A DNA stretch of 64,000 nt from Streptomyces sp. JJ38 (GTDB lineage: Bacteria > Actinomycetota > Actinomycetes > Streptomycetales > Streptomycetaceae): assembly GCF_019303475.1 (NCBI RefSeq), contig NZ_JABLSI010000023.1, positions 1 to 64,000 on the forward strand. Direction: 5' to 3'. A program made the translations under genes and the position numbers. This document shows positions 727 through 46,494 of the stretch, piece by piece (position 1 is the first letter of the stretch; each line of letters starts with the position of its first letter). Below the pieces are notes generated by a model. That model did not search any database. It was not told the DNA's origin and saw only the letters and a program-made list of their open reading frames with translations.

Positions 727-793
727 GTGTTACCAAGCCTGTGAGCACCCCGTGCGGTCGCACGGGCATCGAACCAGCCGGGAGGCATCCGTC

Positions 794-2239
794 ATGACCA
801 CCTTCGTGGACCGCGTCGAGCTGCACATCGCCGCGGGTAACGGAGGCCACGGCTGCGCCTCCGTGCACCGGGAGAAGTTCAAGCCGCTGGGCGGCCCGGA
901 CGGAGGCAACGGCGGCCGCGGCGGGGACGTCGTCCTCGTCGTCGACCAGAGCGTGACGACGCTGCTGGAGTACCACCACAGCCCGCACCGCAAGGCCACC
1001 AACGGCAAGCCGGGGGCGGGCGGCAACCGGATGGGCGCGAACGGCGAGGACCTGGTCCTGCCGGTGCCGGACGGCACGGTCGTCCTGGACAAGCGGGGCA
1101 ACGTGCTGGCCGACCTCGTGGGCGAGGGAACCAGCTTCGTCGCCGGTGAGGGCGGTCGTGGCGGGCTGGGCAACGCGGCGCTGGCCTCCGCCCGCCGCAA
1201 GGCCCCCGGCTTCGCGCTGCTGGGCGTGCCCGGCGAGACGCGCGACATCGTGCTGGAGCTGAAGACCGTCGCCGACGTGGCGCTGGTCGGGTACCCCTCG
1301 GCGGGCAAGTCCTCGCTGATCTCGGTACTCTCCGCGGCCAAGCCCAAGATCGCCGACTATCCCTTCACGACGCTCGTCCCCAACCTGGGCGTCGTGACCG
1401 CCGGATCGACCGTCTACACCGTCGCCGACGTCCCCGGGCTGATCCCCGGTGCGAGCGAGGGCAAGGGCCTGGGCCTGGAGTTCCTCCGGCACGTCGAGCG
1501 CTGCGCGGTCCTCGTCCACGTCCTCGACACGGCGACGCTGGAGTCCGACCGCGATCCCGCCTCCGACCTGGACGTCATCGAGCAGGAGCTCGCCCAGTAC
1601 GGGCGGGGGCTGGAGGACCGGCCGCGGCTCGTGGTGCTCAACAAGGTGGACATCCCCGACGGGCGGGACCTGGCCGATCTGGTCCGTCCGGACCTGGAGG
1701 CCCGCGGCTACCGGGTGTTCGAGGTGTCCGCGCTCAGCCGGGAGGGGCTGAAGGAGCTGTCCTTCGCGCTGGCCGGCATCGTCGAGGAGGCCAGGGCGGC
1801 TCGCCCCAGGCAGGAGGCCACGCGCATCGTCATCCGGCCGCAGGCCGTGGACGACGCGGGGTTCACCGTGACCCGCGAGACCGAGGGCCTCTTCCGCGTG
1901 CGCGGGGAGAAGCCCGAGCGCTGGGTGCGGCAGACGGACTTCAACAACGACGAGGCCGTCGGCTACCTCGCCGACCGGCTCAACCGCCTCGGGGTCGAGG
2001 AGGAGCTGCTGAAGGCCGGGGCCCGGGAGGGCGACGGCGTGGCGATCGGGGACGAGGAGAACGCCGTCGTCTTCGACTGGGAGCCCACCGTCATGGCCGG
2101 AGCCGAGATGCTGGGCCGGCGCGGTGAGGACCACCGCATGGACGTGGCCCGCCCCGCCGCGCAGCGCCGCCGCGACCGGGAGGCGGAGCGCGGCGACTCC
2201 TCCCAGCGCGAGTACGACGACTTCGACCCGTTCGCCTGA
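794..2239 (+). CDS. obgE: GTPase Obg/CgtA
   Basis: Encodes the essential Obg GTPase, 481 residues, which associates with the large ribosomal subunit; in Streptomyces it is linked to the onset of morphological differentiation. The glycine-rich Obg fold occupies about residues 1-160 ([15 protein letters not shown]). The G domain follows, with the P-loop GYPSAGKSS at about 166, the switch motif DVPGL at about 211 and NKVD at about 282. The Obg C-terminal domain spans about 350-430 and an acidic/arginine tail ends at the stop. The ATG at 794 is chosen because GGGAGG lies just upstream and the Obg fold begins at once ([18 protein letters not shown]); upstream in-frame codons lack a ribosome-binding site. 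Convergent with the next gene. Confidence 0.96.
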
Positions 2240-2250
2240 GCCGCGGCCGC

Positions 2251-4371
2251 TCAGGCGGTGACGGAGCTCTCCGGGCTCGCGGGCCCTTCGGCCCGGGAGC
2301 CCGGAGAGCTCCCGGCCTGCGCCGCGTTCCCGGCCTGCCCGTCCACGTCAGCCTTCGGCCCGGTCGCGTCGGCGGGGTCCGCGGGACGTCGGGTGCGCCG
2401 CTCCTCGGCGCGGGCGCACAGGGCCTGCACCGCCGCGTCGAAGCGGTCCAGGGAGGGCGGCTCGTCGGGCCCCAGCAGCCGCGTCTTCAGCTCGGCCCGG
2501 GCCTCGGCGAGGGTGTCCCGCGCCGGGTCGCGGACGGCGGCCAGCAGCTCGGCGAGCCCCTCGCCGTCCGGCGGCAGGACGGTGGCCGCGTGGACGGTGG
2601 GGAAGGCGGCCCGGAACTCCTCCTCGCCCAGCCCCGAGGTGTTCACCACGGCGTAGGGCTTCTCGCTGGCCAGGTAGTCGGACACGACGCTGGACACGTC
2701 GCTGACCAGCAGGTGGGTCTCGTTGAAGCACGCGTACAGCCCGGGGATGGCCCCGTCGACCACCTGGTGCTCCCACTCGGGCACCGCGGCCCAGTACGCC
2801 GCCTCACAGGCATCCTGCGCCCGCTCCACGGCCTCGGCCCGGCCCGGCTCGGGGACCGACTGCACGAGCATCCGCTCGACGTCGTCCGCGTCCGGCCGGA
2901 AGACGCCGTCGGCCAGCCGGTCCAGCTCCGCGGTGCGCCGGGCCAGCTCGGCCCGTGTCTCCGGCCCCGGGCGGCGGCGGCCCGGCTCGGCCGCGCGGGC
3001 CGCGTTCGCCTCGGCGATGAGCGCCCTGATCCGGACGTCGGCCGCACCCGCGCGGGGGTCGACCGAGCCGGTCATGGGGTGCGGCTTGTAGACGAGGCGG
3101 ACCCCGGGGTCGGCCAGCAGGGCGCGGACGATCCGCTCCCCGGCCAGCATGATCGACGTGTTGCCCGGGTCGTCCGTCCAGCCCTCCCAGGTGGGGGCGT
3201 AGAGGACGGTCACGTACGGTCCGGCGGGCGGGCCCGCGGCGGGGCGGATGGGGGCGAGCTGGGGGCGCCCGACCTCCACCACGTCCCGGTCGTCCACGCC
3301 GATGTCGGCCAGCTGGTAGCGCTCCCGCGCGGCCTGGCCCGCGACCCAGACCTCGTCGTACGCCTTCGCGTAGGGGTTGCAGCTCGACAGCTTGTCGCTC
3401 TCGCCGTGGTTGACGAAGGTGTGCATGAGGGAGGGGATGCGCAGCACCTGGGACGTCTTCCCGGAGTTGGCCGGGTGGATCATGATCTTCAGCGGGGAGC
3501 GTTCGAGCACCATCAGGTGCGCCACCTTGGGCAGACACACGACGGGCACGTCCGTCGCCGCGATCTTCTGCATCATGAACCGCTCGCGCAGCACGATCAG
3601 CGGTCGCCCGTGCACGGCCGCCAGGGTGCCCAGCCACATGTTGGCCTGGTAGGCGGACGAGGACCCGCCGGAGAAGTACATCGCGTGGGTCGGCCGGTAC
3701 GCGGCGAGCCAGGCTTCCAGCCACGCGAGCACCGTCCGCTCGTCCGGCGCCCGTCGGCCGCCCAGCAGCCACTGGGCCAGTCGGCCGGTGCCGAGGACGA
3801 GAGCCGTGAGGGTGAGTGCGACGCCGCCCACCGCCCACAGCGGCTCCCGTGTCGCCGTGGCCGTCAGCATCCCCGCCGTCGCGGGCACCATGAACGTCAG
3901 CAGCCGTCGCCCCGGCTGGCGCGCCAGGATGCGCGGGGGTGCGGGGCTCAGCCCGAGCGCGGAGGCGTCCACGTTGCGGGTGAGGACCGGCAGCGCCCGG
4001 TCACGCCGTACCAGCAGGGCGACGAGCTGGCAGGCGAAGTGCGTGACGTAGGCGGCCAGCAGGCCCCCGACCAGCGCCGCCTGCTCCCAGCGGCCCGGCT
4101 CCGCCAGGCGCAGCAGGCCGACGAGCACGATCAGGTCGCGCACGAGCTGCCGGGCGGTGACGTCGAACCGGACGCGGCCGAGGAACGACAGCAGCCCGGG
4201 GCGCAGCTGCTGCACGAGGAGATCGAGGCCGAGGCAGCCAGCGGAGGCCACGATCAGTAGCGGCACCTGCGGCAGCAGTGCGCCGACGAGCTGGGCGGCG
4301 TACAGGCCCAGAAGGGCGAGGAGCGCGCAGAGCTGCCCCTTGCGGTGTGCGAGGAGTCCGGCGGAAGGCAC
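2251..4371 (-). CDS. Membrane-anchored TagF-like glycerophosphotransferase (wall glycopolymer polymerase)
   Basis: A 706-residue protein with hydrophobic membrane segments in about the first 200 residues (around 13-45, 65-110 and 155-200), then a large soluble domain resembling CDP-glycerol:poly(glycerophosphate) glycerophosphotransferases. Visible motifs are FVNHGESDK, VLYAPTWEGW, LVYKPHPMTGS and LVSDVSSVVSDYLASEKPYA, in the order expected for the TagF/TagB nucleotide-binding fold. It probably polymerises or modifies a polyol-phosphate wall polymer at the inner membrane face; substrate is inferred from family only. The start is a GTG with AGGAG about 9 bases upstream. A promoter lies about 200 bases upstream at 4572-4600. 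The C-terminal about 40 residues are low-complexity Ala/Gly/Ser-rich. Confidence 0.8.
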   Translation of the reverse strand: MPSAGLLAHRKGQLCALLALLGLYAAQLVGALLPQVPLLIVASAGCLGLDLLVQQLRPGLLSFLGRVRFDVTARQLVRDLIVLVGLLRLAEPGRWEQAALVGGLLAAYVTHFACQLVALLVRRDRALPVLTRNVDASALGLSPAPPRILARQPGRRLLTFMVPATAGMLTATATREPLWAVGGVALTLTALVLGTGRLAQWLLGGRRAPDERTVLAWLEAWLAAYRPTHAMYFSGGSSSAYQANMWLGTLAAVHGRPLIVLRERFMMQKIAATDVPVVCLPKVAHLMVLERSPLKIMIHPANSGKTSQVLRIPSLMHTFVNHGESDKLSSCNPYAKAYDEVWVAGQAARERYQLADIGVDDRDVVEVGRPQLAPIRPAAGPPAGPYVTVLYAPTWEGWTDDPGNTSIMLAGERIVRALLADPGVRLVYKPHPMTGSVDPRAGAADVRIRALIAEANAARAAEPGRRRPGPETRAELARRTAELDRLADGVFRPDADDVERMLVQSVPEPGRAEAVERAQDACEAAYWAAVPEWEHQVVDGAIPGLYACFNETHLLVSDVSSVVSDYLASEKPYAVVNTSGLGEEEFRAAFPTVHAATVLPPDGEGLAELLAAVRDPARDTLAEARAELKTRLLGPDEPPSLDRFDAAVQALCARAEERRTRRPADPADATGPKADVDGQAGNAAQAGSSPGSRAEGPASPESSVTA

Positions 4372-4550
4372 GGGTCAAGCTCCTGGAGGGGCGTACGGGG
4401 CGTCGGCGGAGGGCGGACGCGGGTCCGGCTCCGCCGACGGGACGCGGAGGGATGCGGAAGGGTGCGAATGCATGGGGATGCGGGGGACTGAGGGGATGGG
4501 GGGAAGCGGGGGACGCGGGACAGCGGCTGTGGGGGCCAAAGGATGACCAC

Positions 4551-4571
4551 CGTGGAGCCGATGGCTCCACG
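4551..4571. repeat. Perfect 9-bp inverted repeat at the transcription start of the TagF-like gene
   Basis: CGTGGAGCC, loop GAT, GGCTCCACG: nine perfect pairs. It starts immediately downstream of the minus-strand -10 element (4572-4577), so the predicted +1 lies inside it. It could be an operator for a dimeric repressor or a 5'-end stem-loop of the mRNA. Confidence 0.7.
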
Positions 4572-4600
4572 ACCCTAATCCGAACCACAACCGCTGACAA
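4572..4600 (-). promoter_or_regulatory. Sigma70/HrdB-type promoter of the TagF-like gene
   Basis: Read on the minus strand, TTGTCA (4600-4595) is separated by exactly 17 bases from TAGGGT (4577-4572). Both hexamers and the spacing fit the principal sigma-factor consensus. The predicted start near 4565 leaves a leader of about 195 bases before the GTG at 4371. Confidence 0.7.
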
Positions 4601-4811
4601 TTCCCGGTGAACCACGGTGCGCGGGTTTTTCCGGTAAGCGCTCCCCTCGCACCACGCCGCGCGCCGGTGGGTTCTCGCTCATCCGTCCGGGGGCGGTTCC
4701 GCGCCCCGGACGAGCCGTCCGTCCCATGGACCGCACGAGCGGGGCAAGAGCGACCTGACGTACATTGCGGCCGTAGAGCGCGAGCAGCACGCGCATCCGA
4801 CAGACGCACAC

Positions 4812-5966
4812 ATGGGGGTCTCCGTGACAGCGGCAGCCGAGGCACGCGACGAAGCCGTCCGGCCCGAGGTCGAGCGCGCCCGGAGAATCGTGGTCAAGGT
4901 CGGCTCCTCCTCCCTGACGACGGCCGCGGGCGGGCTGGACGCCGACCGCGTCGACGCCCTCGTCGACGTCCTCGCCAAGCACGGCGACCGGGACGTCGTA
5001 CTCGTCTCCTCCGGCGCCATCGCCGCCGGGCTCGCTCCCCTCGGCCTCCGCCGCCGCCCGCGCGACCTGGCCCGCCAGCAGGCGGCCGCCAGCGTCGGCC
5101 AGGGCCTCCTGGTGGCCCGCTACACCGCCTCCTTCGCCCGCTACGGGCGCCGCGTCGGGCAGGTGCTGCTGACCTCGGACGACACCAGCAGGCGCGGCCA
5201 CTACCGCAACGCCTTCCGCACCCTGGAGCAGCTGCTCGCCATGGGCGCTGTCCCGGTGGTCAACGAGAACGACACCATCGCCACCGACGAGATCCGCTTC
5301 GGCGACAACGACCGGCTCGCCGCCCTCGTCGCCCACCTCGTCCGCGCCGACCTGCTCGTCCTGCTCTCCGACGTCGACGGCCTCTACGACGGTGACCCGA
5401 GCACCCCCGGCACCACCCGCATAGCGGAAGTGCACGGCCCCGCCGACCTCGCCGACATCTCCCTGGGCAGCGTCGGCTCGGCCGGCGTGGGCACGGGCGG
5501 CATGGTCACCAAGGTGGACGCCGCCCGGATCGCGGCCGGGGCCGGCATCCCCGTCGTCCTCACCTCGGCCAGCCACGCCGCCGACGCCCTCGCCGGCCGG
5601 GTGACCGGCACGTTCTTCCACCGGACCGGCCGGCGCAGCGCGGACCGGCTGCTGTGGCTCGCCCACGCCTCCAGCCCGCGCGGCGCCCTCGTCCTCGACG
5701 CCGGGGCCGTCGACGCCGTCGTCCAGCGGCGCACCTCGCTGCTGCCCGCCGGGGTGCAGCGGGTCGAGGGCGACTTCTCCGCCGGCGACCCGGTGGAGCT
5801 GCGGGACGGCCAGGGGCGCCCCGTCGCCCGCGGGCTCGTCAACTTCGACGCCAAGGAGATCCCCCAGTTGCTCGGCCGATCCACCCGGGAGCTCGCCCGC
5901 GACCTCGGACCGGAGTACGAGCGGGAGATCGTCCACCGCGATGACCTGGTGTTGCTGCGCCCCTGA
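4812..5966 (+). CDS. proB: Glutamate 5-kinase
   Basis: Catalyses ATP-dependent phosphorylation of L-glutamate, the first step of proline synthesis, in the cytosol. The 384-residue protein has an amino-acid-kinase domain with RRIVVKVGSSSLTT near the N-terminus, VLVSSGAIAAGL, VVNENDTIATDEIRFGDND and SVGSAGVGTGGMVTKVDAA, followed by a C-terminal PUA domain (about 290-380, ending RELGPEYEREIVHRDD-like). The start is uncertain: ATG 4812 has no clear ribosome-binding site, while GTG 4824 follows GGGGGTCTCC and is a good alternative. proA lies about 800 bases downstream, with a small unrelated gene between them. Confidence 0.95.
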   Translation: MGVSVTAAAEARDEAVRPEVERARRIVVKVGSSSLTTAAGGLDADRVDALVDVLAKHGDRDVVLVSSGAIAAGLAPLGLRRRPRDLARQQAAASVGQGLLVARYTASFARYGRRVGQVLLTSDDTSRRGHYRNAFRTLEQLLAMGAVPVVNENDTIATDEIRFGDNDRLAALVAHLVRADLLVLLSDVDGLYDGDPSTPGTTRIAEVHGPADLADISLGSVGSAGVGTGGMVTKVDAARIAAGAGIPVVLTSASHAADALAGRVTGTFFHRTGRRSADRLLWLAHASSPRGALVLDAGAVDAVVQRRTSLLPAGVQRVEGDFSAGDPVELRDGQGRPVARGLVNFDAKEIPQLLGRSTRELARDLGPEYEREIVHRDDLVLLRP

Positions 5967-16054: not shown

Positions 16055-16127
<73 letters not shown>

Positions 16128-16133
16128 CAGATC

Positions 16134-25799: not shown

Positions 25800-25869
25800 C
25801 GCCGACCAGCATCGCACGTCGCTCGGACACCGCTGCCGCCCCCGGCCCGGGGCCCGGCACAATGGCCCG

Positions 25870-26115: not shown

Positions 26116-26257
26116 GTGCGCCCCGGCCCGTGTCCCGCCCCGTGTGTCCGGGGCGTGCCTCCGGCCGGGCGGTCGCAGGACCTAGGACCGCGGTAGAGGT
26201 GGGGACGGCGCCGCAGTCCGATGCCCGGGAGGGGGCTCGCGCCGTAGCGTCGCCCGT

Positions 26258-26722: not shown

Positions 26723-26774
26723 GGCTCGGGAGCCCCTGTTCCCCGGGGCCCTGGCGAGCAGGGAACAAGGAAAA

Positions 26775-26813
26775 CGCGGTGGGGGCCGGAACGACGTTCC
26801 GGCCCCCACCGCG
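26775..26813 (-). terminator. Terminator with perfect 18-bp stem between convergent genes
   Basis: Left arm 26775-26792 and right arm 26796-26813 are exact complements around the loop GAC. AAAA at 26771-26774 gives a four-base U-tract on the minus strand, so it ends the acyl-CoA synthetase transcript best, and can also block readthrough from the plus-strand gene. Confidence 0.85.
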
Positions 26814-26828
26814 GCGCGTGCGCGGCGG

Positions 26829-28721: not shown

Positions 28722-29101
28722 GACATCCTCCGTGGCCCGCGTTGTGCTGGGGGGTGACTCACGAGTAACTGAAGCGCTGATCAGCCTAGGGGCGATGGCC
28801 CTCCGGGGAAAGACTTCGGGAGCGCGGCAACGCTTTCGTTACCCCTGGATACGTTGCCGGGAGGCCCGTCACCTGGGGATTTGCACCCTTCGGTGCGCCT
28901 GTCACCGGGTGTCCCCCCACGTGTCCGCCGCCGCTTCGGAGGGTCGGTCAACGGGCACGAAGCGTCGAAATCGGATCATGTCGCGCCCCCAGGTTCGTTC
29001 TCGCGATGGGGTGGTCCGAATTCCGGGCACTGCCGGGGTGTCGGAAAAACGGGAGTGCGCCGGGGAAAACCGGCGCACTCCCGCTGCGTCATCCGGGGGC
29101 T
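28722..29101. other. Gene-free region between the acyl-CoA ligase and lepA
   Basis: About 380 bases. The right end holds the lepA terminator (29045-29082). Near the ligase, minus-strand TTTCCC and TAGGCT (28783-28788) at 17-base spacing are a weak promoter candidate, and the palindrome GCTGATCAGC sits beside it as a possible operator. The middle part shows no convincing gene or repeat. Confidence 0.5.
29045..29082 (-). terminator. Intrinsic terminator of lepA
   Basis: GGGAGTGCGCCGG (29051-29063) and its exact complement (29070-29082) flank GGAAAA. On the minus strand the stem is followed by one base and then five U (plus-strand AAAAA at 29045-29049). It begins about 20 bases after the lepA stop. 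Confidence 0.88.
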
Positions 29102-30991
29102 TTACTTCTTGCTCTTGTCTCCGGCCTCGTCGCTGGAGAGGGCGGAGATGAAGGCCTCCTTGGGGACCTCCACGCTGCCCACCATCTTCATGCGCTTCTT
29201 GCCTTCCTTCTGCTTCTCCAGCAGCTTGCGCTTCCGGGAGATGTCACCGCCGTAGCACTTGGCCAGCACGTCCTTGCGGATCGCCCGGACCGTCTCGCGG
29301 GCGATGACCCGGGAGCCGACGGCCGCCTGGATCGGCACCTCGAAGTGCTGCCGCGGGATCAGCTCGCGCAGCTTCCCGGCCATGCGGACGCCGTAGGCGT
29401 AGGCCTTGTCCTTGTGGACGATCGCGGAGAAGGCGTCCACCTTGTCGCCGTTCAGCAGGATGTCGACCTTCACCAGGTCGGCGCTCTGCTCGCCGGTGGG
29501 CTCGTAGTCCAGCGAGGCGTAGCCGCGGGTCTTCGACTTCAGCGCGTCGAAGAAGTCGAACACGATCTCCGCCAGCGGCAGCGTGTACCGCAGCTCGACG
29601 CGGTCCTCGGAGAGGTAGTCCATGCCCTGGAGGTTGCCCCGGCGGGTCTGGCACAGCTCCATGATCGCGCCGACGTACTCGCTGGGCGCCAGGAGCGTCG
29701 CCCGCACGACCGGCTCGTGTACCCGGTCCACCTTGCCCGCGGGGAACTCGCTCGGGTTCGTGACGACGTGCTCCGTGCCGTCCTCCATGACGACCTGGTA
29801 GACGACGTTCGGCGCCGTGGCGATCAGGTCCAGCCCGAACTCGCGCTCCAGCCGCTCGCGGATGACCTCCAGATGCAGCAGGCCGAGGAAGCCCACGCGG
29901 AAGCCGAAGCCCAGGGCCGCCGACGTCTCCGGCTCGTAGACGAGCGCGGCGTCGTTCAGCTGGAGCTTGTCGAGCGCGTCCCGCAGCTCCGGGTAGTCGG
30001 AGCCGTCCAACGGGTACAGCCCCGAGAACACCATGGGCTTGGGGTCCTTGTACCCGGGCAGCGCCACTTCGGCGCCCTTGTGGAACTGCGTGATCGTGTC
30101 ACCGACCTTGGACTGCCGCACGTCCTTCACACCGGTGATCAGATAGCCGACCTCGCCCACGCCCAGGCCGTCGGCGGCCTTCATCTCCGGGGAGTTGGTG
30201 CCGATCTCCAGCAGCTCGTGGGCGGCGCCGGTGGACATCATGCGGATGCGCTCGCGGCGGCCCAGCTCGCCGTCGACGACCTTCACGTAGGTCACGACGC
30301 CCCGGTAGGCGTCGTAGACGGAGTCGAAGATCATCGCACGGGCGGGGGCGTCCTTGACGCCGACCGGCGCGGGGACCAGCCGCACGACCTCGTCGAGCAG
30401 CTCCCCCACGCCCTCGCCCGTCTTGGCGGAGACGCGCAGGACCTCCTCGGGCTCGCAGCCGATCAGGTGGGCCAGCTCGGCGGCGAACTTCTCCGGCTGC
30501 GCGGCCGGCAGGTCGATCTTGTTCAGGACCGGGATGATCGTGAGGTCGTTCTCCATCGCCAGGTAGAGGTTGGCGAGGGTCTGCGCCTCGATGCCCTGGG
30601 CCGCGTCCACGAGCAGGATGCACCCCTCGCACGCCGCCAGCGAACGGGAGACCTCGTAGGTGAAGTCAACGTGGCCCGGGGTGTCGATCATGTTCAGGAT
30701 GTGCGCGGTCCCCGAGTCGTCCCCCGAGGTGGGGGCCCACGGCATCCGCACGGCCTGGGACTTGATCGTGATGCCGCGTTCACGCTCGATGTCCATGCGG
30801 TCGAGGTACTGCGCGCGCATCTGGCGCTCTTCGACGATGCCGGTGAGCTGGAGCATCCGGTCGGCGAGCGTGGACTTGCCGTGGTCGATGTGCGCGATGA
30901 TGCAGAAGTTGCGGATCAGCGCCGGGTCGGTACGACGCGGCTCGGGCACGTTCGAGGGGGTCGCGGGCACGCGGGGTCCTGTCGGGGTCAT
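29102..30991 (-). CDS. lepA: Elongation factor 4 (LepA)
   Basis: A translational GTPase that acts on stalled or mistranslocated ribosomes; 629 residues. GTP-binding motifs are [17 protein letters not shown] (near residue 30), [17 protein letters not shown] and [10 protein letters not shown]. LepA-specific C-terminal features are [20 protein letters not shown] and [20 protein letters not shown]. The start at ATG 30991 has no strong ribosome-binding site and the first about 25 residues ([19 protein letters not shown]) are variable, so a slightly later start is possible. Divergent from rpsT. Confidence 0.97.
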
Positions 30992-31073
30992 GGCTTGCGG
31001 ATCGGTACGTCGTCCCCCATCGTCCCATGTCCGTCGGCCCTGGTCCGATTAGGGAGGGGCGGAGCCCGACTGC

Positions 31074-31079
31074 TAGTGT
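31074..31079 (+). promoter_or_regulatory. Candidate -10 element of rpsT
   Basis: TAGTGT lies 111 bases before the rpsT start in the lepA-rpsT divergent region. I see no good -35 match, so it is tentative; it implies a leader of about 105 bases for S20 mRNA. Confidence 0.35.
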
Positions 31080-31190
31080 GGACGACTGTGCTTCGTGCCG
31101 CCGCGTGCCCTCTTCACCGGCGGACCCGCGGGCCGGTCCACCGGCCAGCAAGCACGGAAGAGACATCTCCGATCCTGAAAAGGCTCCTTC

Positions 31191-31457
31191 GTGGCGAACA
31201 TCAAGTCCCAGATCAAGCGGATCAAGACCAACGAGAAGGCCCGCCAGCGCAACAAGGCCGTCAAGTCCGAGCTGAAGACCGCCATCCGCCGCGTGCGCGA
31301 GGCCGTCGCCGCCGGTGAGGCCGAGAAGGCCACCGCCGCCGTCGCCGTGGCCGGCCGCAAGCTGGACAAGGCCGTCAGCAAGGGCGTTCTGCACAAGAAC
31401 AACGCCGCCAACAAGAAGTCGGCGCTCGCCCAGCAGGTCTCCGCTCTGCAGAAGTGA
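31191..31457 (+). CDS. rpsT: 30S ribosomal protein S20
   Basis: An 88-residue, strongly basic helical protein that binds 16S rRNA. It begins [20 protein letters not shown] and ends [20 protein letters not shown], typical of the family. The start is GTG at 31191 with AAAAGG about 9 bases upstream. It is transcribed divergently from lepA, as in other Streptomyces. A hairpin at 31612-31650 is a plausible terminator. Confidence 0.97.
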
Positions 31458-32237
31458 TCCCGGCCGCCTCGGCGGCCCCCTCCGCCCTGTTCCGGTGACG
31501 GACCCCGGCTGCCCTCTCATCAGCCGCCCGCTCCGGGTCACCGGCGGAAGCACGACTCGCGCCGCACGCGGCCTGCGTTCGCCACGCGGGTGCGGCGCAC
31601 CAGCACCACCCGAAGGCCCCGCCTCCCTCCCCAGGGAACGCGGGGCCTTCCGCATGCGTCCAGACGGGCCTCGGGGGCGACCTTCACGCCGATTCAGGTG
31701 AACGTCCCATGTTCAGCTGACGTTCTCGTCGGCGCTGCCCGTGTGCTGTGTCCACGTCGCCGCGCTGGGGTGGTGGTCGGCGTGGAGAGCAGGGCCCAGC
31801 AGTGGTGCGATACCATGTGCTGCCGCGTTTCGGGAAGGTTAAGTGCCCCACTTCAGGGGTCGATTAGATCACGAATGGATAACGCTCGGCAACTGTTTGC
31901 CGTCGGGTGTCGTCTCTTCAGTGAGGAATCACCGAGCGTGCCCTCATGTGGCGTACTAGCAGATCAAGGGGAGGGTTTTGCCGCGCTTCATGCTCGTCGA
32001 GCCTGCCCTGAGCGCGGCGGGGCGGCCCAGGCTGTCCGTAGAGCGCCGGCTCACCGGTGACCCCGGGGCCCCTGCACTCTGCGGTCCCAGCATGGAGGGA
32101 TGCCTCACCGGCGCTCGGATGGACGGTACGCCTTGATGCCCCACGGCTCTGCCGATCCGGGGCTCGGCGCACCGTGCCTGCGAAGACGCCAGCACACCAA
32201 GCGCCCGGACAGCCACGGATTCGAGTCAGAGGTAACT
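31458..32237. other. Gene-free region between rpsT and the glycosyltransferase operon
   Basis: About 780 bases. It contains a hairpin (31612-31650). From about 31680 onward the base composition drops noticeably towards A/T, which continues through the next two genes, so the junction of an acquired segment may lie here. Open frames in it show no family resemblance or ribosome-binding site. I see no convincing promoter, repeat or integrase-type attachment site. Confidence 0.55.
31612..31650 (+). terminator. Candidate terminator downstream of rpsT
   Basis: GAAGGCCCCGC (31612-31622) and GCGGGGCCTTC (31640-31650) are perfect 11-base complements with a 17-base loop. It is 155 bases after the rpsT stop and has no U-run. 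Confidence 0.55.
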
Positions 32238-35120
32238 GTGTCAGTGCCCTATGCCAACGACGGTACGCCGGACATCAGCGTCGTCGTGATCGTGTTCAAC
32301 GATGCCGCGCGTCTTCCGACGGCAGTGCACTCCGTGCTCGATCAGACCCTGCAGAACGTCGAGGTCGTCATCGCCGACGACTGCTCCACAGACGGCTCGT
32401 ACGAGGTCGCCCAGGCGATCGCCGCAGAGCACCCCAGAGTACGGGCGATCCAACTGCCGGAGAACAGTGGCGGCTGCGGTGAGCCCCGGAACCAAGGTGT
32501 GGCCATTGCCCGTGGTCGTTACGTGATGTTCCTGGACAGCGACGACACCCTCGAGGTGAACGCCTGCCGCAACATGTTGGAGGCGGCTGACCGGACGGGA
32601 GCCGATCTCGTCTCAGGTCTGTGCACACGCGTGCACGTTGACAGTCGCACGGGCAAGACCGCTAAGTGGTACCAGTGGCTGTACCGTCAGACCCGCACGC
32701 TGGAGTCCATCTCCGACCTCCCGGACCTGATGGTCTTCGACACGCTGTCCACCAACAAGTGCTACCGACGTGAATGGCTGCTGGAGAAGGGGCTCACGTT
32801 TCCCCGTGGCATCCACTATGAGGATTTGCTCTTCTCCGCCGAAGCGTATCTCGCTGCCTCTCGTATCACGTTGATACCCAACACGGTCTACTTCTGGAAC
32901 GTCGCGGAGAAGGCGGAGCAGAAGTCGATCAGCAACCGGCGTCACGAGATCAACAATTTCGCAGACAGAATCGAGATTCACCGGCGCATCGACGCGATCC
33001 TCGCCTCCCGGGGCCTCGACGGTCTGAAGCTGCACAAGGATCGCAAGTTCCTGAAGCACGACCTGGTGTTGTACCTGCGAGACCTTCCGTTCCTGGATGA
33101 CGACTACCGCCACCGATTCGCCGAGATGGCCCGGGAATACGTCGAGGGGTTCTCCAAAGAGGCATACGACGCGTTGAGTCCGATCCACGCGCTTTGCGCC
33201 TGCCTCCTGCTCCGGGAGGACTGGAAGAACCTCATGCCGGCAATCGACACCCTCATCAACAAGCGGAAAATCTCCTCGCCCCTCGTCAAGCGGGACGGCC
33301 GTGTCTACTGGTGCCCGGAGCATCTGGAGGACGCGCATGCCCGCGAGGTCCTTGACGTGACGGACCTCGGGTACCACAGCAGGTCCGTCGACCGGATGTT
33401 CTTGCGCAACCGCCTGACCGGGTACGCGGAGCGGCCGGCCGGCATCATCCTCGAAGGAGAGGTCGTTAATCCGCTGGGCGTGATACCGGAAGGCGCGGAT
33501 ATTGCGGCCGAGTTGGAGTTCCGTGCTCGCCGCCGAAGCCTCCAGACGTTCCGCTTCCCGGTGCGGCGGCTTGTCCACACCGGTGACTTCGTAACGTGGC
33601 GGGCCGCGGTGCCCCTGGGGCACCGTTTGCGCCCTCTCGGAGTCGTGGACGAGGTGTGGGACGTTCGGATGCACCTCACGGTGGACGGGCGGCGTACGAC
33701 GAGTCGCCTGACGGCTGAAGGGGCCGAACTCGAAGATTCCGTAGGCTCCCGTGTCCGCCCGCGCCTGAGCCGGATCGTGGCCGACCACATAGAACCGCAT
33801 GTCTCGGCCAACGGCCACCTCGCGTTCCGCCTCAGCCAACAAACCAGGGTCGCGCAACGTACCAGGGAACTGGTCGGCCGGAATCTGCACGGTACCCCCG
33901 CGAACGCTGCCAAGTCCGTGGTGAGGAAGGTTCAGGCGGTCCGCAAGGATCTGAACTCCGGACAGCGCAAGATCCAGGGTTACCGTCGGATGCTGCGCCT
34001 GCTGCCCGTTCGCAAGGGCACGATCGTCTTCGAAAGCCACCTCGGCAAGCAGTACAGCGACAGTCCGCGGGCCATCCTCGAGGAGCTGCGGCGCCGTGGC
34101 GTGCCGATTACGCCGATCTGGTCGTACGCCGGTGCGCGCCCGGAGGACGTCCCGGAGGGAGTGGAGCTCGTCCGCCGCTGGTCATGGCAGTACCTGCGGG
34201 CGTTGGCACAAGCCGAATACTGGATCGACAACCAGGGGTTCCCCCTCAAGCTGCCCAAGAGGCCGGAGACCACCTACATCCAGACTTGGCATGGAACGCC
34301 CTTGAAGAAGATGGGCTTTCACGAGCCCGGATACCGGATGCTGCCCGAACATGAGCAACGCGCCTATCAGGAGGCGCTGGACAGGTTCGACTACTTTGTT
34401 GTCCGCGGTGAGCATGACGTACGCACTCTCGCCCGCGCGTACCGCATTCCTGAGGAGAAGCTGCTGCGAGTCGGTTACCCGCGCAACGACGCTCTCGTCA
34501 GGGCGCGGGACAGGAAGGCATCCGACCCCGAGGCGGTCCGGACGGCGGAGCGACTCGGCATCAAACTGGACCGCCCAGTCCTGCTCTACGCCCCGACCTT
34601 TCGCGCGCAGAGCAACGGCAAGGTGCGGAAGTTCCAGTGCCCCTTCGACGTTGAGGAGTTCGTCGAAAGATTCGGCGATCGCTACACGCTTCTCATCCGC
34701 TCCCACTACCTCAACTCGGTGACGCTTCCGCCGTCCGTTGAGGGGCGTGTCATCAACGTGAGCAAGGAGCCGGACGTTTCTCCCCTCCTGATCCTTGCCG
34801 ATGCCCTGATCACGGATTACTCGTCTGTCATGTTCGATTACTCGCTGCTCCAGCGGCCCATGATCTTCTTTGCTTACGACTGGGAGGAGTACGCCCAAGA
34901 CATTCGCGGCACGTATTTCCATCTTCCCAGTGAGGCCCCTGGTCCGGTGGTCCGCACCGAGACCGAGCTCTTCGAGGCACTGTCCGACCTCGAGGGCATC
35001 GGCGTGCGGTACGCGGTGCCACTGAAGGAATTCCTTGACAAGTACGGCGAGTACGACCGCGGCGATGCCGCCGCGCAGATCGTGGACCGGTTCTTCGGCC
35101 GGGTGGGGGGCGCTCGATGA
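32238..35120 (+). CDS. Bifunctional GT2 glycosyltransferase / CDP-glycerol glycerophosphotransferase
   Basis: A 960-residue fusion. Residues about 10-230 are a GT-A family 2 transferase (DISVVVIVFNDAARLP, VVIADDCSTDGSYEVA, MFLDSDDTLE with the DxD metal motif). A middle region of about 350 residues is of uncertain fold. The last about 370 residues are a TagF domain (IVFESHLGKQYSDSPRAI, TYIQTWHGTPLKKMG with the likely catalytic His, LLYAPTFRAQ, LLIRSHYLN, DALITDYSSVMFDYSLL). The start GTG 32238 follows AGAGG. It probably builds a sugar-decorated polyol-phosphate wall teichoic acid in the cytosol. Lower GC than its neighbours suggests acquisition. It overlaps the next gene by four bases. Confidence 0.85.
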   Translation: MSVPYANDGTPDISVVVIVFNDAARLPTAVHSVLDQTLQNVEVVIADDCSTDGSYEVAQAIAAEHPRVRAIQLPENSGGCGEPRNQGVAIARGRYVMFLDSDDTLEVNACRNMLEAADRTGADLVSGLCTRVHVDSRTGKTAKWYQWLYRQTRTLESISDLPDLMVFDTLSTNKCYRREWLLEKGLTFPRGIHYEDLLFSAEAYLAASRITLIPNTVYFWNVAEKAEQKSISNRRHEINNFADRIEIHRRIDAILASRGLDGLKLHKDRKFLKHDLVLYLRDLPFLDDDYRHRFAEMAREYVEGFSKEAYDALSPIHALCACLLLREDWKNLMPAIDTLINKRKISSPLVKRDGRVYWCPEHLEDAHAREVLDVTDLGYHSRSVDRMFLRNRLTGYAERPAGIILEGEVVNPLGVIPEGADIAAELEFRARRRSLQTFRFPVRRLVHTGDFVTWRAAVPLGHRLRPLGVVDEVWDVRMHLTVDGRRTTSRLTAEGAELEDSVGSRVRPRLSRIVADHIEPHVSANGHLAFRLSQQTRVAQRTRELVGRNLHGTPANAAKSVVRKVQAVRKDLNSGQRKIQGYRRMLRLLPVRKGTIVFESHLGKQYSDSPRAILEELRRRGVPITPIWSYAGARPEDVPEGVELVRRWSWQYLRALAQAEYWIDNQGFPLKLPKRPETTYIQTWHGTPLKKMGFHEPGYRMLPEHEQRAYQEALDRFDYFVVRGEHDVRTLARAYRIPEEKLLRVGYPRNDALVRARDRKASDPEAVRTAERLGIKLDRPVLLYAPTFRAQSNGKVRKFQCPFDVEEFVERFGDRYTLLIRSHYLNSVTLPPSVEGRVINVSKEPDVSPLLILADALITDYSSVMFDYSLLQRPMIFFAYDWEEYAQDIRGTYFHLPSEAPGPVVRTETELFEALSDLEGIGVRYAVPLKEFLDKYGEYDRGDAAAQIVDRFFGRVGGAR

Positions 35121-36262
35121 CTCAGCGTGACATCTACTTCGTGGCGAACGAGGTCAACGAACTGGGCGGCGTCGCCCGTTGGCAGACTCAGATGGCCCGC
35201 TTGTTCGCCGAGCGCGGGCACCGGGTGACCGTCATCGGGATCGCCCCGCCCGAGGCCCCGATGGACCTGGGCGACAACCCGCTGTTTGACACCGTGACGT
35301 TGTACGACGTCCGTCCCCCCGCCCGGTGGCAGGCCCGCACGCTTCGAGACCGGGCCAACATCGTGGCCCGACAGCGCGAGGCCGCGAGGGTAGCGGGCAT
35401 GCGGGAAGCCGCTCATCGTCTGTCGGGCCTCTTCCGGGCGGCCCCCGCCGGCGCGATGATCATCGTCACCCAGGTCTGGGCGATGGAGTGGGTTGCGCTG
35501 GCGGACACGGCCGGGCATCCGGTCATCGGAATGAGCCATGAGTCCTATGAGTCCACCCGCCAGTCATCCCGTTTCCAGCGCGTGCAGAAGTACTACAAGG
35601 ACGTTGACCGCCTTCTCGTTCTGACCCAGGAAGACGCGGACCTCTGGGTGGGCAAGGGGCTCAACAACACGGGGTTCATGGCGAATCCGCTGCCGGTGAT
35701 GCCGGAGTCCGCCTCCCCGCGGACGGAGAAGGTCGTGTGCAGCATCGGCCGCCTTGGACACGAGAAGGCGATCGACATGCTGCTCGACGCCTGGGCCGAG
35801 GCAGCGCCCGACAACCCCGGATGGCGGCTGCGCATCTACGGCTCAGGGCCGGACGAAGCGGCTCTCAAAGCCCAGTGCACCGGCCTGGGTTTGGACGACT
35901 CGGTTGAATGGGCCGGCCAGACCAGCGACGTCGTGGGAGCGCTGCACGGCTCCTCGGTCTTCGTACAGTCCTCCCGAGGCGAGGGCTTCCCCCTGGCCCT
36001 GCTCGAAGCCATGGCCTGCGGCGTCCCATGCGCGGCGTTCGACTGCGCTCCCGGGGTACACGAGATCATCCAGGACGGTGTGGACGGGTTGCTAGCCCGT
36101 CCCGGCAACACCTCTGAGCTCGCCCGGCAGATGAGCCGTCTCATGGCCGACGCCGATCTGCGGGACAGCATGGGCGACGCGGCACGCGCCAACGTGCAGC
36201 GGTACTCGCCCCAGGCCATCACCGACCGTTGGGAGCAGCTTTTCGCGTTCCTGGAGCGTTGA
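35117..36262 (+). CDS. GT4-family glycosyltransferase
   Basis: A 381-residue GT-B enzyme. The N-terminal NELGGVARWQTQMARLFAER matches the glycine-rich acceptor loop. The C-terminal half has VCSIGRLGHEKAIDMLLDAW, WRLRIYGSGPDEAALKAQ and the nucleotide-sugar E-x7-E motif in SSRGEGFPLALLEAMACGVP. Its ATG overlaps the previous stop (ATGA), so it is cotranslated with the GT2-TagF enzyme and likely adds sugars to the same wall polymer. Base composition is lower in GC than the flanks. Donor and acceptor cannot be told from sequence. Confidence 0.88.
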   Translation: MTQRDIYFVANEVNELGGVARWQTQMARLFAERGHRVTVIGIAPPEAPMDLGDNPLFDTVTLYDVRPPARWQARTLRDRANIVARQREAARVAGMREAAHRLSGLFRAAPAGAMIIVTQVWAMEWVALADTAGHPVIGMSHESYESTRQSSRFQRVQKYYKDVDRLLVLTQEDADLWVGKGLNNTGFMANPLPVMPESASPRTEKVVCSIGRLGHEKAIDMLLDAWAEAAPDNPGWRLRIYGSGPDEAALKAQCTGLGLDDSVEWAGQTSDVVGALHGSSVFVQSSRGEGFPLALLEAMACGVPCAAFDCAPGVHEIIQDGVDGLLARPGNTSELARQMSRLMADADLRDSMGDAARANVQRYSPQAITDRWEQLFAFLER

Positions 36263-36306
36263 ACGCCGCCCGGGCCGGCTCGGGCCGCCCTCGGCTCGCG
36301 TGGGCG

Positions 36307-37539
36307 TCAGTCGACGAGGTCGCGGACGACGGCGTCGGCCAGGAGGCGGCCGCGGCGGGTGAGGGCGGCGCGGCCCGTGGCGTAGGCGTCCTCGCGGAGC
36401 AGACCGTCGGCCAGGGCGCGGCGGGCCGCGGCCGCGCCCGCGGGGGCCAGGAGGTCGAGGGGGCAGCCGGCCTCCAGGCGCAGCTCCAGGAGGATGCGCT
36501 CCACGCGCCGGTCCTCGTCGGTGAGCAGTTCGCGGCCGGCGCCGGGGGAGCGGCCCTCGGCGAGGGCCTGGGCGTAGGCGCCGGGGTGCTTGACGTTCCA
36601 CCACCGCACCCCGCCGACGTGGCTGTGTGCTCCGGGTCCGGCGCCCCACCAGTCGGCGCCCGTCCAGTACAGCTCGTTGTGGCGGCAGCGGGCGGCCGGG
36701 GTGCGGGCCCAGTTGGAGACCTCGTACCAGGCGTAACCGGCGGCGGCGAGGGCCTCGTCGGCGATGAGGTAGCGGTCGGCGTGGACATCGTCGTCCGTCA
36801 TCGGGACCTCGCCGCGGCGGATGCGCCGGGCGAGCCCGGTGCCCTCCTCGACGATCAGGGCGTAGGCGGAGACGTGGTCGGGCTCGGCGCCGATCGCGGC
36901 GTCCAGGGAGGCGCGCCAGTCGTCGTCCGACTCGCCGGGGGTGCCGTAGATGAGGTCCAGGTTGACGTGCTCGAAGCCGGCGGCGCGGGCCTCGGCGACG
37001 CACGCTTCGGGGCGGCCCGGCGTGTGGGTGCGGTCGAGGACGCGCAGGACGTGGTCCCTGGCGCTCTGCATGCCGAAGGAGACGCGGTTGAAACCGGCGG
37101 CGCGCAGCTCGGCCAGGTAGGCGGCGTCCACGGACTCGGGGTTGGCCTCGGTGGTGACCTCCGCGTCGTCCGTCAGCCCGAAGGTGTCGCGGACGGTGGC
37201 GAGCATGCGGCCGAGGTCCGCGGCGGGCAGCAGGGTGGGGGTGCCGCCGCCGACGAAGACGGTCTGGACGGGGCGCGGGTCGTCGCCCAGGACCTTGCGG
37301 GCGAGATGGATCTCGTCGGCGAGCGTCGCGGCGTAGTTGTCGCGGGAGGCCAGCACGCCGCCGGAGCCGCGCAGCTCGCTCGCGGTGTAGGTGTTGAAGT
37401 CGCAGTAGCCGCAGCGGGTGGCGCAGTAGGGGACGTGCAGGTAGAAGCCGAGGGGGCGGTCGGCGCCGTCGGCCAGGGCGGCGGCGGGCAGGGCGCCGTC
37501 CTCGGGCACGGCTTCGCCGTCGGGGAGTGCGGAGGGCAT
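36307..37539 (-). CDS. hemW: Radical SAM heme chaperone HemW
   Basis: A 410-residue radical-SAM protein, the coproporphyrinogen-oxidase-like family now assigned to heme delivery. The cluster motif is CATRCGYCDF (about residues 39-46), followed by TVFVGGGTPTLLPAADLGRM and FGMQSARDHVLRVLDRTHTP. The protein is cytosolic and has a winged-helix-like C-terminus (RLEAGCPLDLLAPAGAA). The start ATG 37539 lies six bases after minus-strand GACAAT, consistent with a leaderless mRNA. It precedes DUF3097, MBL and hrcA genes as in other Streptomyces. Confidence 0.93.
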   Translation of the reverse strand: MPSALPDGEAVPEDGALPAAALADGADRPLGFYLHVPYCATRCGYCDFNTYTASELRGSGGVLASRDNYAATLADEIHLARKVLGDDPRPVQTVFVGGGTPTLLPAADLGRMLATVRDTFGLTDDAEVTTEANPESVDAAYLAELRAAGFNRVSFGMQSARDHVLRVLDRTHTPGRPEACVAEARAAGFEHVNLDLIYGTPGESDDDWRASLDAAIGAEPDHVSAYALIVEEGTGLARRIRRGEVPMTDDDVHADRYLIADEALAAAGYAWYEVSNWARTPAARCRHNELYWTGADWWGAGPGAHSHVGGVRWWNVKHPGAYAQALAEGRSPGAGRELLTDEDRRVERILLELRLEAGCPLDLLAPAGAAAARRALADGLLREDAYATGRAALTRRGRLLADAVVRDLVD

Positions 37540-37619
37540 GCGTCCATTGTCCGTGATCGGGCCGGCTCGTCGGGCCGCGTGTGGTTCGGCCGTCGGCCGG
37601 CCCGGCGGTGTCGCGTCGG

Positions 37620-38471
37620 TCAGCCCGTCGGGCCACCGACCGTGACGTGGTCGATGAGCCGCTCGACCGGGCCGAGGAGCTCGGGCTCCAGGTCGCGGTA
37701 GGAGCGCACGGCGGCCAGGACGCGCTGCCAGGCGGCGCCGGTGTTCGGCGGCCAGCCGAGCGCCCGGCACACACCGGTCTTCCAGTCCTGGCCGCGCGGC
37801 ACCTCCGGCCAGCGTTCGATGCCCAGCGAGGCGGGCTTCACGGCGGCCCAGACGTCCACGAAGGGGTGGCCGACGACGAGGACGTGGGGGCCGCTCACCG
37901 ACGCGGCGATCCGGGACTCCTTCGAGCCCGGCACCAGGTGGTCGACGAGCACGCCGAGGCGGGCGTCGGCGCTCGGGCCGAAGCGCTCGACGACGGCGGG
38001 CAGGTCGTCGACGCCCTCCAGGTACTCCACGACGACGCCCTCGACACGCAGGTCGTCGCCCCACACCCGCTCGACGAGCTCCGCGTCGTGCCGCCCCTCG
38101 ACGTAGATCCGGCCCGCCCGGGCGACCCGGGCCCGGGCTCCGGGCACCGCGATCGAACCGGAGGCCGTGCGCCGGGGCCCGGCGGCCGGGGAGGCCGGAG
38201 CGGTCCGCCGCGGGCCGACGAGGGTCACGGGCGCGCCGTCGACGAGGAACCCGCTCGGTGTCGTGGGGAACACGCGGAGCTTGCCGAAGCGGTCCTCCAG
38301 CGTGACCGTCGGCCCCTCGGCCGTCTTCTCCCAGCGGACGACGGCGCCGCAGAAGCCGGTGGCGGCTTCCTCGACGACGAGCCCGGCGTCGGCCGGCACC
38401 TCGGGAGCGGCCGTGCGCCGCTTCCACGGCGCGGTGAAGTCCACGTTGTCGTAACGATTGTCGCTGCGCAT
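37620..38471 (-). CDS. DUF3097 family protein
   Basis: A 283-residue actinobacterial protein of unknown biochemical function. It starts MRSDNRYDNVDFTAPWKRR, contains VFPTTPSGFLVDGAPVTL, then a TOPRIM-like stretch (RIYVEGRHDAELVERVWGDD, LGVLVDHLVPGSKESRIAA, VLVVGHPFVDVWAAVKPASL). The EGxxDAE and DHxxxGSKE patterns resemble the metal-binding acidic residues of TOPRIM domains, hinting at nucleic-acid activity; that is inference. It ends 80 bases before hemW and probably shares its transcript. ATG 38471 is preceded on its strand by CAGAAT at six bases. Confidence 0.85.
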   Translation of the reverse strand: MRSDNRYDNVDFTAPWKRRTAAPEVPADAGLVVEEAATGFCGAVVRWEKTAEGPTVTLEDRFGKLRVFPTTPSGFLVDGAPVTLVGPRRTAPASPAAGPRRTASGSIAVPGARARVARAGRIYVEGRHDAELVERVWGDDLRVEGVVVEYLEGVDDLPAVVERFGPSADARLGVLVDHLVPGSKESRIAASVSGPHVLVVGHPFVDVWAAVKPASLGIERWPEVPRGQDWKTGVCRALGWPPNTGAAWQRVLAAVRSYRDLEPELLGPVERLIDHVTVGGPTG

Positions 38472-38496
38472 GCGCGCATTCTGCCCGCAGGCGGGC

Positions 38497-39252
38497 TCAG
38501 CCGAGCGCCGGGCCGGGTGCCGGGGGCGGGGCCGGGCGGCGGCGGAGCTGGTCGCGCTGGGCGGCGACGAAGGCGGCGTCGACGACGGCACCGTGGCCGG
38601 GCACGTACAGGGCGTCCTCGCCGCCGAGGGCGAGGAGCCGGTCGAGGGCGTCGGGCCACACGGCGGGGTGGGCGTCGGGGCCCGCCTGGGGCTCGCCGGA
38701 CTCCTCCACCAGGTCGCCGCAGAACACGACCTCCGGCTCGCCGGGAGCCTGGCCGGGGACGAGGACCGCGAGGTCGTGCCCGGTGTGGCCCGGGCCGACG
38801 TTGGCCAGCATGACCCGGCGTCCGCCGCCCAGCGACAGCGTGAGCTCGCCGCAGACCTGGTGGTGCGGGGCCACCAGGAGGTCGACGGCGTCCGCCGCCT
38901 CCTCGGGGGCGAGGCCGTGCCGGACGGCATCCGCGCGCAGCTCGTCGGCGAGGTGGGGGAGCCGCGTCGTCAGGCCGACGGCCCCGTAGACCTCCACCCC
39001 GGCGAAGGCGGCGGTGCCGAGGACGTGGTCGAAGTGCGGGTGGGTGAGGACGACGTGGGTGACGGGGAGGCCGAAGAGGTCGCGCAGCTGCCGCCGGATC
39101 TCGGCTCCCGCGCGGAGCGACGCGCCGGTGTCGACGACGAGCACCCCGTCCCGTCCGCGCACGGCGCCGACCGTCTCGTCCCAGCCGGGCATGCGGCGGC
39201 GCACGACGCCGGGGGCGAGCTCCTCCCACAGCGCGTTTCCCTGTGCCGTCAT
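38497..39252 (-). CDS. Metallo-beta-lactamase fold hydrolase
   Basis: A 251-residue MBL-fold protein with the zinc motif LTHPHFDHVLGTAAF (HxHxDH at about residue 79) and later ligands in VGPGHTGHDLAVLVPG and PGHGAVVDAAFV. GVLVVDTGASL opens the core. The general fold is clear (glyoxalase II/quorum-lactonase type), the substrate is not. ATG 39252 lies seven bases after minus-strand TAGCGT. It is divergent from hrcA and 201 bases away, with the CIRCE element between them. Confidence 0.88.
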   Translation of the reverse strand: MTAQGNALWEELAPGVVRRRMPGWDETVGAVRGRDGVLVVDTGASLRAGAEIRRQLRDLFGLPVTHVVLTHPHFDHVLGTAAFAGVEVYGAVGLTTRLPHLADELRADAVRHGLAPEEAADAVDLLVAPHHQVCGELTLSLGGGRRVMLANVGPGHTGHDLAVLVPGQAPGEPEVVFCGDLVEESGEPQAGPDAHPAVWPDALDRLLALGGEDALYVPGHGAVVDAAFVAAQRDQLRRRPAPPPAPGPALG

Positions 39253-39318
39253 AGGGCCGACGCTAGTCGTACCGGCGCCACTTCGCCCGACGCGGGGTAC
39301 CTTCGGGTCCGGCCGCCC

Positions 39319-39349
39319 TTGCCCGGGTCGTGGTACCCGGCCGTACACT
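39319..39349 (+). promoter_or_regulatory. Promoter of the hrcA-dnaJ operon
   Basis: TTGCCC (39319-39324), a 19-base spacer and TACACT (39344-39349) form a sigma70-type promoter. The predicted start point at about 39356 lies immediately before the CIRCE operator. Confidence 0.6.
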
Positions 39350-39358
39350 GGTCCCGGA

Positions 39359-39385
39359 TTGGCACTCAGGGATGCCGAGTGCCAG
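39359..39385. promoter_or_regulatory. CIRCE operator (HrcA binding site)
   Basis: TTGGCACTC, nine bases, GAGTGCCAG: matches the CIRCE consensus TTAGCACTC-N9-GAGTGCTAA with one change in the left arm and two in the right. It lies just downstream of the predicted start site and 67 bases before hrcA, so HrcA should repress its own operon, with release on heat shock. Confidence 0.93.
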
Positions 39386-39452
39386 GGGCGGGAAAGAGCC
39401 AGGGAAGACCCAGCAAGAGACCCGGTCACGGCCGGACGGGAGGTGCGCCACC

Positions 39453-41597: not shown

Positions 41598-41604
41598 CCG
41601 GCCG

Positions 41605-46457: not shown

Positions 46458-46494
46458 GGGACGGACGGTACCGGCCGTCCGGCACACTGGCGGC
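46458..46494. promoter_or_regulatory. 37-bp divergent promoter between GH4 and PfkB genes
   Basis: Minus-strand TACCGT (46470-46465) ends seven bases before the GH4 ATG, and plus-strand CACACT (46483-46488) ends six bases before the PfkB ATG. Both genes are probably leaderless, and the -35 elements would lie within the opposite gene. Confidence 0.55.

Follow-up and report, generated by a model that had tools for sequence, protein, structure and literature searches.

How a pair of glycosyltransferase genes came to lie between rpsT and hemW in a streptomycete, and what these genes contribute to the cell, is the question raised by a stretch of 64,000 nucleotides from Streptomyces sp. JJ38 (hereafter the window; positions 1 to 64,000 of contig NZ_JABLSI010000023.1), whose genome comprises 5.9 Mb in 118 contigs. 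A preliminary description of this DNA regarded the pair as an AT-rich operon for a strain-specific surface polymer, replaced by transfer. The explanation that appears best as a whole, and that we consider probable, is that about 4.6 kb of DNA with a two-gene wall-glycopolymer operon would have been inserted after the split of this line from its three nearest relatives (denoted G713, G719 and G241), the point of entry, by this reconstruction, lying immediately past the terminator-like hairpin of rpsT, in the gap that separates this gene from the convergently oriented hemW.

The gene pair and its composition

The first gene of the pair (tagF; 32244..35120, plus strand) encodes a 958-aa fusion of a GT2 domain (Pfam PF00535, 3.8e-34; about 32277-32777) with a Glyphos_transf (TagF) domain (PF04464, 2.1e-101; about 33987-35096), and the second (35117..36262, plus strand) encodes a GT4 glycosyltransferase of 381 aa (PF00534, 4.8e-40). 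Both frames are intact, and the last 4 bases of the first ORF (ATGA, 35117-35120) are also the first 4 of the second. The genes are preceded by a leader of 587 bases with a GC content of.658 (31657..32243, plus strand) and followed by a GC-rich tail (36263..36296, plus strand), so that the original account of two overlapping glycosyltransferase genes with a leader was accurate. The start of tagF is most likely the GTG at 32244 because this codon and the Shine-Dalgarno sequence AGAGGT at 32228-32233, which is found in relatives as well, align with S. flaveolus and others.

The 4640-base stretch that begins at 31657 has a GC content of.650, compared with a mean of.737 and with.686 for the lowest non-overlapping stretch of equal size, and is the AT-richest stretch of its size within the window. 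The GC3 values are.815 for tagF (z -5.6) and.853 for the GT4 gene (z -4.0), compared with.948 +/-.023 (minimum.899) for 31 other window genes picked as likely real, and the CAI values are.458 and.522, respectively, compared with.752 +/-.073 for the same 31 genes. The codon usage of both genes thus falls far outside that of these neighbours, and the AT-richness described at the outset is confirmed. The base counts initially given, 32 of 60 G/C at 32821-32880 and 53 of 60 at 36421-36480, are exact; single 60-base blocks are weak evidence of AT-richness (blocks with 32 or fewer G/C make up 4 of the 989 outside the segment and 4 of the 76 inside), and it is the segment as a whole that provides strong evidence.

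The insertion site

The left flank of the insertion is rpsT (31194..31457, plus strand; tblastn to relatives 74-97%), a name that rests on the preliminary description and on the position beside lepA (29102..30991, minus strand; Pfam LepA_C and GTP_EFTU), the conserved left neighbour that also served as a species marker. The right flank is hemW (minus strand; TIGR00539, 4.3e-72), which spans 36307 to approximately 37500, within an ORF that continues to 38427; the synteny comparison used the full ORF (36307-38427), and the extra matches of its N-terminal part were disregarded.

The rpsT-hemW gap spans 4849 bp in the window, compared with 248 bp in G241, 248 bp in G719 and 234 bp in G713, the nearest relatives found (LepA identity of 93% for G241 and 95% for both G713 and G719), and none of these three gaps contains the pair. 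The homology between the window and G241 ends at 31646, at the end of the rpsT hairpin, and returns at 36297, immediately behind the tail of the insert, and the similarity to the GT4 region of relatives that carry the pair ends at about 36262-36290, the best estimate being about 36272. The terminator-like hairpin (31612..31650, plus strand), just after which the insertion starts, is far more stable than expected by chance (for 31600-31656, fold z -5.2, with 0 of 200 shuffles equally stable) and, having no T run, is absent from the list of a simple terminator scan. A hairpin in the insert tail (36263-36296) is as stable as shuffled sequences (fold z 0.57). The claim of an insertion between rpsT and hemW is therefore borne out by empty sites in the three nearest relatives, but the notion that something had been 'replaced' is not because these sites carry only a short spacer, as befits a gain.

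The pair does separate rpsT from hemW, but the expected closeness of these two genes is not the usual Streptomyces arrangement. In the 20-kb stretches around lepA from 20 relatives, where not every gene is visible in every stretch, the usual order, with lepA taken in minus-strand orientation, runs dnaJ, hrcA, hemW, fadD, lepA, rpsT, holA, comEC (one locus, L050, has a different block after holA), and hemW lies beyond fadD and lepA in all 19 of the 20 fetched relatives where it is seen. Because the fadD-lepA-rpsT block (26829-31457) is inverted in the window, G241, G713 and G719 compared with the other Streptomyces examined, rpsT faces hemW in these four, and G241, G713 and G719 are the only other genomes, among those examined for order, in which the two genes adjoin.

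Some further variation was observed in the flanks. The holA gene (24807-25862), whose ORF shares 278 bases with the end of the comEC ORF, has plus-strand orientation in G241 and minus-strand orientation in the window, G713 and G719. The leuS gene (16445-19315, plus strand), preceded immediately by a pair of tRNA-Ala(GGC) genes with about 550 bases between them (15429-16128, plus strand), occupies this place in the window and in G241 and has no match in the 80-kb regions compared from G713 and G719, where it may sit elsewhere in the genome. Two long ORFs at 47572-50997 (minus strand), bounded by 45159-47081 on one side and 51431 on the other, lack a match at the equivalent position in G241, G713 and G719 and are a possible second lineage-specific insertion.

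Distribution and phylogeny of the pair

Genome searches detected no TagF orthologue in G241, G719 or G713, where the best matches show 32, 36 and 35% identity, respectively, and there is no TagF match in G253 at E 1e-20. Given the empty sites and the lack of an orthologue in G241, G713 and G719, the presence of the pair is best read as a gain in the line of the window. In the collections used, which contain one genome per species, a TagF match of at least 59% identity is found in 39 of the 149 other genomes of the genus (one match is partial), and a further 25 of the 149 have a match at 38-44% that passes E 1e-100. Where lepA is on the contig that carries the pair (26 of the 39 genomes), the two are never less than 23.8 kb apart (24-34 kb in 11 genomes and at least 449 kb in 15).

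The site itself was scanned with a DNA query spanning it in 372 other genomes of the genus (19 more were unscored) and in 393 other genomes of the family, 340 of them matching, with one or two regions scored per genome and the best matches listed. No junction of the pair with rpsT or with hemW appears in other genomes among the matches listed, so that, to this extent, the same two genes were not found at the same place elsewhere; the case for the absence of the pair from this site in other genomes thus appears strong, if not complete.

The similarity of TagF does not follow that of the species marker. The best TagF identity, 75%, is with G660, which belongs to the same GTDB genus as the window genome, and G102, for which LepA identity is 86%, and the nearest relative with the pair, G089 (LepA 92%), has a TagF of only 62% identity encoded about 449 kb from lepA. 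Across the 36 genomes with both genes, the TagF and LepA identities are uncorrelated (Spearman -0.10, p 0.58). In quick trees (LG+G4), LepA of the window groups with G713, G719 and G241 (SH-aLRT 99; 83 for the window with G713 and G719 only), far from the nearest kin of the pair. In the TagF tree, by contrast with this discordant species marker, the window falls within a clade of 20 rows (SH-aLRT 100), beside the seven rows of the S. flaveolus/S. rochei/G102/G564 group (G102, G564, G660, L013, L014, L025 and L034; 90), and the GT4 tree agrees with the TagF tree (100 and 91). In AU tests, with the groups named after the LepA identities were known, placement of the window with G089 was rejected (p 0.0013 for TagF and 1.8e-12 for GT4), as was placement of its TagF with either of two further groups of sequences whose genomes are closer to it in LepA.

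The one observation that speaks for an old gene, vertically inherited in the line of the window and separately lost in its relatives, is that orthologues of at least 59% identity are common in the genus. Such a history demands separate losses in G713/G719, in G241 and in G253, which is at odds with the clean rpsT-hemW junctions of G713, G719 and G241 and with trees that place the window copy among distant species and reject its union with G089. On the strength of the empty sites and the trees, vertical descent with losses was ruled out, and we regard it as highly improbable. Acquisition by transfer, as originally suggested, is supported by the identity discordance, the TagF and GT4 trees and the AU tests alike; together with the empty site, the discordant gene trees make a well-supported case that the pair would be a horizontally acquired insertion.

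The low GC content and the donor

The low GC content, first taken as a mark of the donor, did not stand up in this role. The GC3 of the 40 orthologues examined ranges from.861 to.981 for tagF and from.886 to.995 for the GT4 gene, compared in this analysis with.816 and.856, respectively, for the window copy, which is the lowest of the 41; with all 40 orthologues richer, low GC was ruled out as a donor fingerprint. Because none of them reaches such a low GC3, either the direct donor would be unsampled or the window copy would have drifted. That the composition reflects relaxed codon selection or drift in the window copy, rather than that of the donor, is quite possible, though not the view we favour: the window copy has the lowest GC3 even when the likely donor group is included, and yet drift, which is compatible with transfer, explains the composition only, the empty sites and the trees being independent of GC.

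The leader provides few additional clues to the source. Compared with the 149 other genomes of the genus, it yielded a single match of 35 bases only, and at most the last 40 bases before tagF resemble the corresponding region in relatives, from which it appears that the break of the transferred segment lies at the end of the upstream gene or slightly within it. The possibility that the leader is the donors' own promoter was dropped after blastn against the fetched loci gave matches only towards rpsT and in the final bases ahead of tagF. Plasmid origin was likewise rejected: two plasmid records contain a relative (E 1e-80) of only 58-59% identity, and the leader has no plasmid match. An Rfam search of 26000-42000 gave no match at the gathering threshold. 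A mobile element, too, found no support: the insert contains the two glycosyltransferase genes only, with no integrase or transposase, there is no tRNA gene nearby (those of the window are confined to 15.4-16.1 kb), and no end repeats bracket the insert among the repeats listed (20 of 36 direct and 25 of 64 inverted).

The obg-proB slot and other genomic contexts

The most common place of the pair is beside obg, in the obg-proB slot, where 14 of the 32 named loci are found. The remaining 18 are spread over four further contexts (B, 7 loci; C, 7; D, 2; and a fifth, in Actinoplanes, 2), with peptidase genes among the neighbours sampled in context B and thiolase, FtsX and CMAS genes in context C, and on account of this spread the pair looks portable. 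The genes of S. flaveolus run proB, epimerase, GT2-TagF of 748 aa, GT2-TagF of 958 aa, GT4, obg, and in the nearest known relatives of the pair (S. flaveolus, S. rochei and others), it resides in the slot directly after an additional GT2-TagF gene (that of 748 aa in S. flaveolus); in L014, L025 and L034, one further gene follows GT4. The S. coelicolor genes SCO2589-2592 presumably lie beside obg as well. The two genes occur together: a GT4 orthologue is present in the same fetched stretch as GT2-TagF in 40 of 40 cases, and in 34 of 48 loci the gene caller placed GT4 immediately after TagF, having taken another frame or missed GT4 in the other 14.

In the window, the slot (752..5966) lies 28 kb from the pair and holds, between obg (752-2239, plus strand; NCBIfam ObgE) and proB (4812-5966, plus strand; NCBIfam proB), not the pair but a 706-aa gene without a Pfam or NCBIfam match (2251-4371, minus strand). 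Homologues of this gene with 59-64% identity are found in L014, L025, L034 and L086, and the assumption that it is unrelated was abandoned since its family shares the slot with glycosyltransferase genes in L014, L025 and L034. The 706-aa protein has N-terminal hydrophobic stretches and C-terminal motifs (YAPTW, KPHP, SDVSSVVSDY) that, by eye, look TagB/TagF-like; BLASTP against TagF of the window found nothing significant.

On the TagF tree of the 32 loci and the window, each of the contexts B, C and D corresponds to a single clade, with B next to D, and the fewest context changes are five, which is the minimum possible for six contexts and hence no test in itself. The window falls among the obg-slot copies (93), a group within which the tree does not resolve the branching, including that of the window relative to its neighbours S. 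candidus (L021) and the S. flaveolus group. The obg-proB slot may be the older home of the pair.

This distribution invites a history in two steps, in which recombination between conserved flanking sequences first brought the pair into the obg-proB slot and a later move of about 28 kb along the chromosome took it to the rpsT-hemW site. The nearest relatives of the pair have it in the slot, which lies 31 kb (G660) and 33 kb (G564) from lepA, the area is prone to rearrangement, with the fadD-lepA-rpsT block inverted and the orientation of holA variable, and in L014, L025 and L034 the homologue of 2251-4371 occurs in the slot together with glycosyltransferase genes. However, the gene order in the slot of the window is that of G713, G719 and G241, a TagF search of the genome found no second copy on the contig of the window, and the new site lacks both the epimerase and the upstream GT2-TagF gene found in the donor slot, so that we consider two steps unlikely. 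Direct insertion at rpsT-hemW remains the preferred reading.

A broader and equally doubtful generalization would be that the pair is a portable surface-switching cassette which, with no mobility gene of its own, repeatedly leaves the obg-proB slot, settles between housekeeping genes and, by altering the wall glycopolymer, also alters how phages or the lectin-guided toxins of rival streptomycetes recognize the cell. If the slot is the older home, such a cassette would have departed from it at least three times (window, context C and contexts B/D).

Predicted functions of the two proteins

The fusion protein matches PF04464 with 340 bits, compared with a cut-off of 22.1, over positions 4-366 of the 367 in the profile, and aligns with the S. 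epidermidis TagF structure (PDB 3l7i) at 3.6e-78 over 360 residues. Two histidines aligned with 3l7i, H683 and H821 (in TWHGTPLK and RSHYL), are kept and invariant in six aligned proteins; we take them to be catalytic. PMC5974469 refers to five active-site motifs. The view that the genes encode enzymes of a wall-glycopolymer type is supported by the Pfam domains and by the 3l7i alignment; the narrower NCBIfam equivalogs are below cut-off (TarF 250 of 550 bits, TarL 98 of 1000). Compared with G660 (NG86), dN is.175 and dS 1.03 for tagF, and dN is.113 and dS.656 for the GT4 gene. As dN remains far smaller than dS in each of three comparisons with relatives, the proteins appear to be kept by selection, with the caveat that dS is near saturation.

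Two profiles were tried as pointers to a source of activated polyol, and neither named one. TIGR01518 has no match in the window genome at E 1e-5 and none above the cut-off in 12 genomes, donors included (weak matches in 9 of the 12). PF01128 has one strong and one weak match in the window genome, both above the cut-off, the strong one being taken for IspD. Because no polyol cytidylyltransferase (TIGR01518) was matched, a sugar-phosphate product would fit. According to PMC5974469, the TagF-like domain of Gram-negative capsule polymerases transfers hexose-phosphate or glycerol-phosphate and the neighbouring domain transfers hexose, and polymerases with a GT-A domain before the TagF-like domain are tied to poly(oligosaccharide phosphate) products. 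By analogy, the fusion may build a phosphodiester glycopolymer, possibly one containing sugar-phosphate, and GT4 may add a sugar. A 1454-aa protein with an N-terminal GT2 domain and a C-terminal TagF domain is encoded in G719 (L179:13402-17766).

In the pathway that we infer, the GT2-TagF protein would act in the cytosol on a lipid-linked primer, the GT2 domain adding a sugar and the TagF domain a sugar-phosphate or polyol-phosphate, to give a phosphodiester-linked chain. GT4 would attach another sugar, either to the repeat or as a side group, and resident export and LCP ligase proteins would place the product on peptidoglycan; a LytR_C-domain protein with a sub-threshold LCP match (11903-14017) is one possible ligase. 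For the cell, the probable outcome is an additional or modified surface polymer.

The proteins might instead decorate or branch the resident wall teichoic acid rather than build a new backbone. Other GT2-TagF proteins in the genome (747 and 735 aa, on other contigs) could build the backbone, the neighbours examined in two other contexts of the pair are not glycopolymer genes, and Streptomyces wall teichoic acids bear species-specific glycan additions, as stated in PMC13274773. Nevertheless, the TagF domain is complete and has both aligned histidines, which argues for phosphodiester transfer and not glycosylation alone and makes decoration possible but less plausible than synthesis of a polymer backbone.

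Comparison with known systems

Streptomyces wall teichoic/teichuronic acid loci vary between species (PMC13274773, PMC3937824). For S. coelicolor, PMC3937824 counts SCO2589-2590 and SCO2592 among the wall teichoic acid genes, and for S. griseus, PMC13274773 places TagF (SGR_4957) and TarIJ (SGR_4956) near the L21 and L27 genes. The latter, a recent study, also identifies the wall glycopolymers of Streptomyces as variable receptors of umbrella toxins and ties the targeting of these toxins to differences among S. griseus-type loci, a link that may extend to the pair of the window. The insertion itself was not encountered among the titles in the literature searched, and prior publication is possible.

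The pair adds to the surface gene set and may change the cell surface, and its clean gain, with empty sites in close relatives, offers a natural before-and-after comparison of the surface effect. It also indicates that wall-polymer genes can change outside the obg-proB slot, so that a survey anchored on that slot would miss such cases.

Three known systems invite comparison. Cps1B and Ccs2, Gram-negative capsule polymerases described in PMC5974469, likewise have a GT-A type domain before a TagF-like domain in one chain, whereas the genes of the window are predicted to serve an actinobacterial wall polymer, not a capsule, and include a separate GT4 partner. S. epidermidis TagF (3l7i) resembles the fusion over the 360 residues of the TagF domain, with the two histidines kept, but the window protein is longer (958 aa compared with 729 aa) and has a stronger GT2 domain and an extra middle region. 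The Streptomyces wall teichoic/teichuronic acid locus comprises the same enzyme classes, a likeness at the level of class, and differs in that the pair of the window sits at rpsT-hemW and is accompanied by neither the epimerase nor the upstream GT2-TagF gene. The pair is thus a known kind of Streptomyces wall-glycopolymer enzyme set at a new site.
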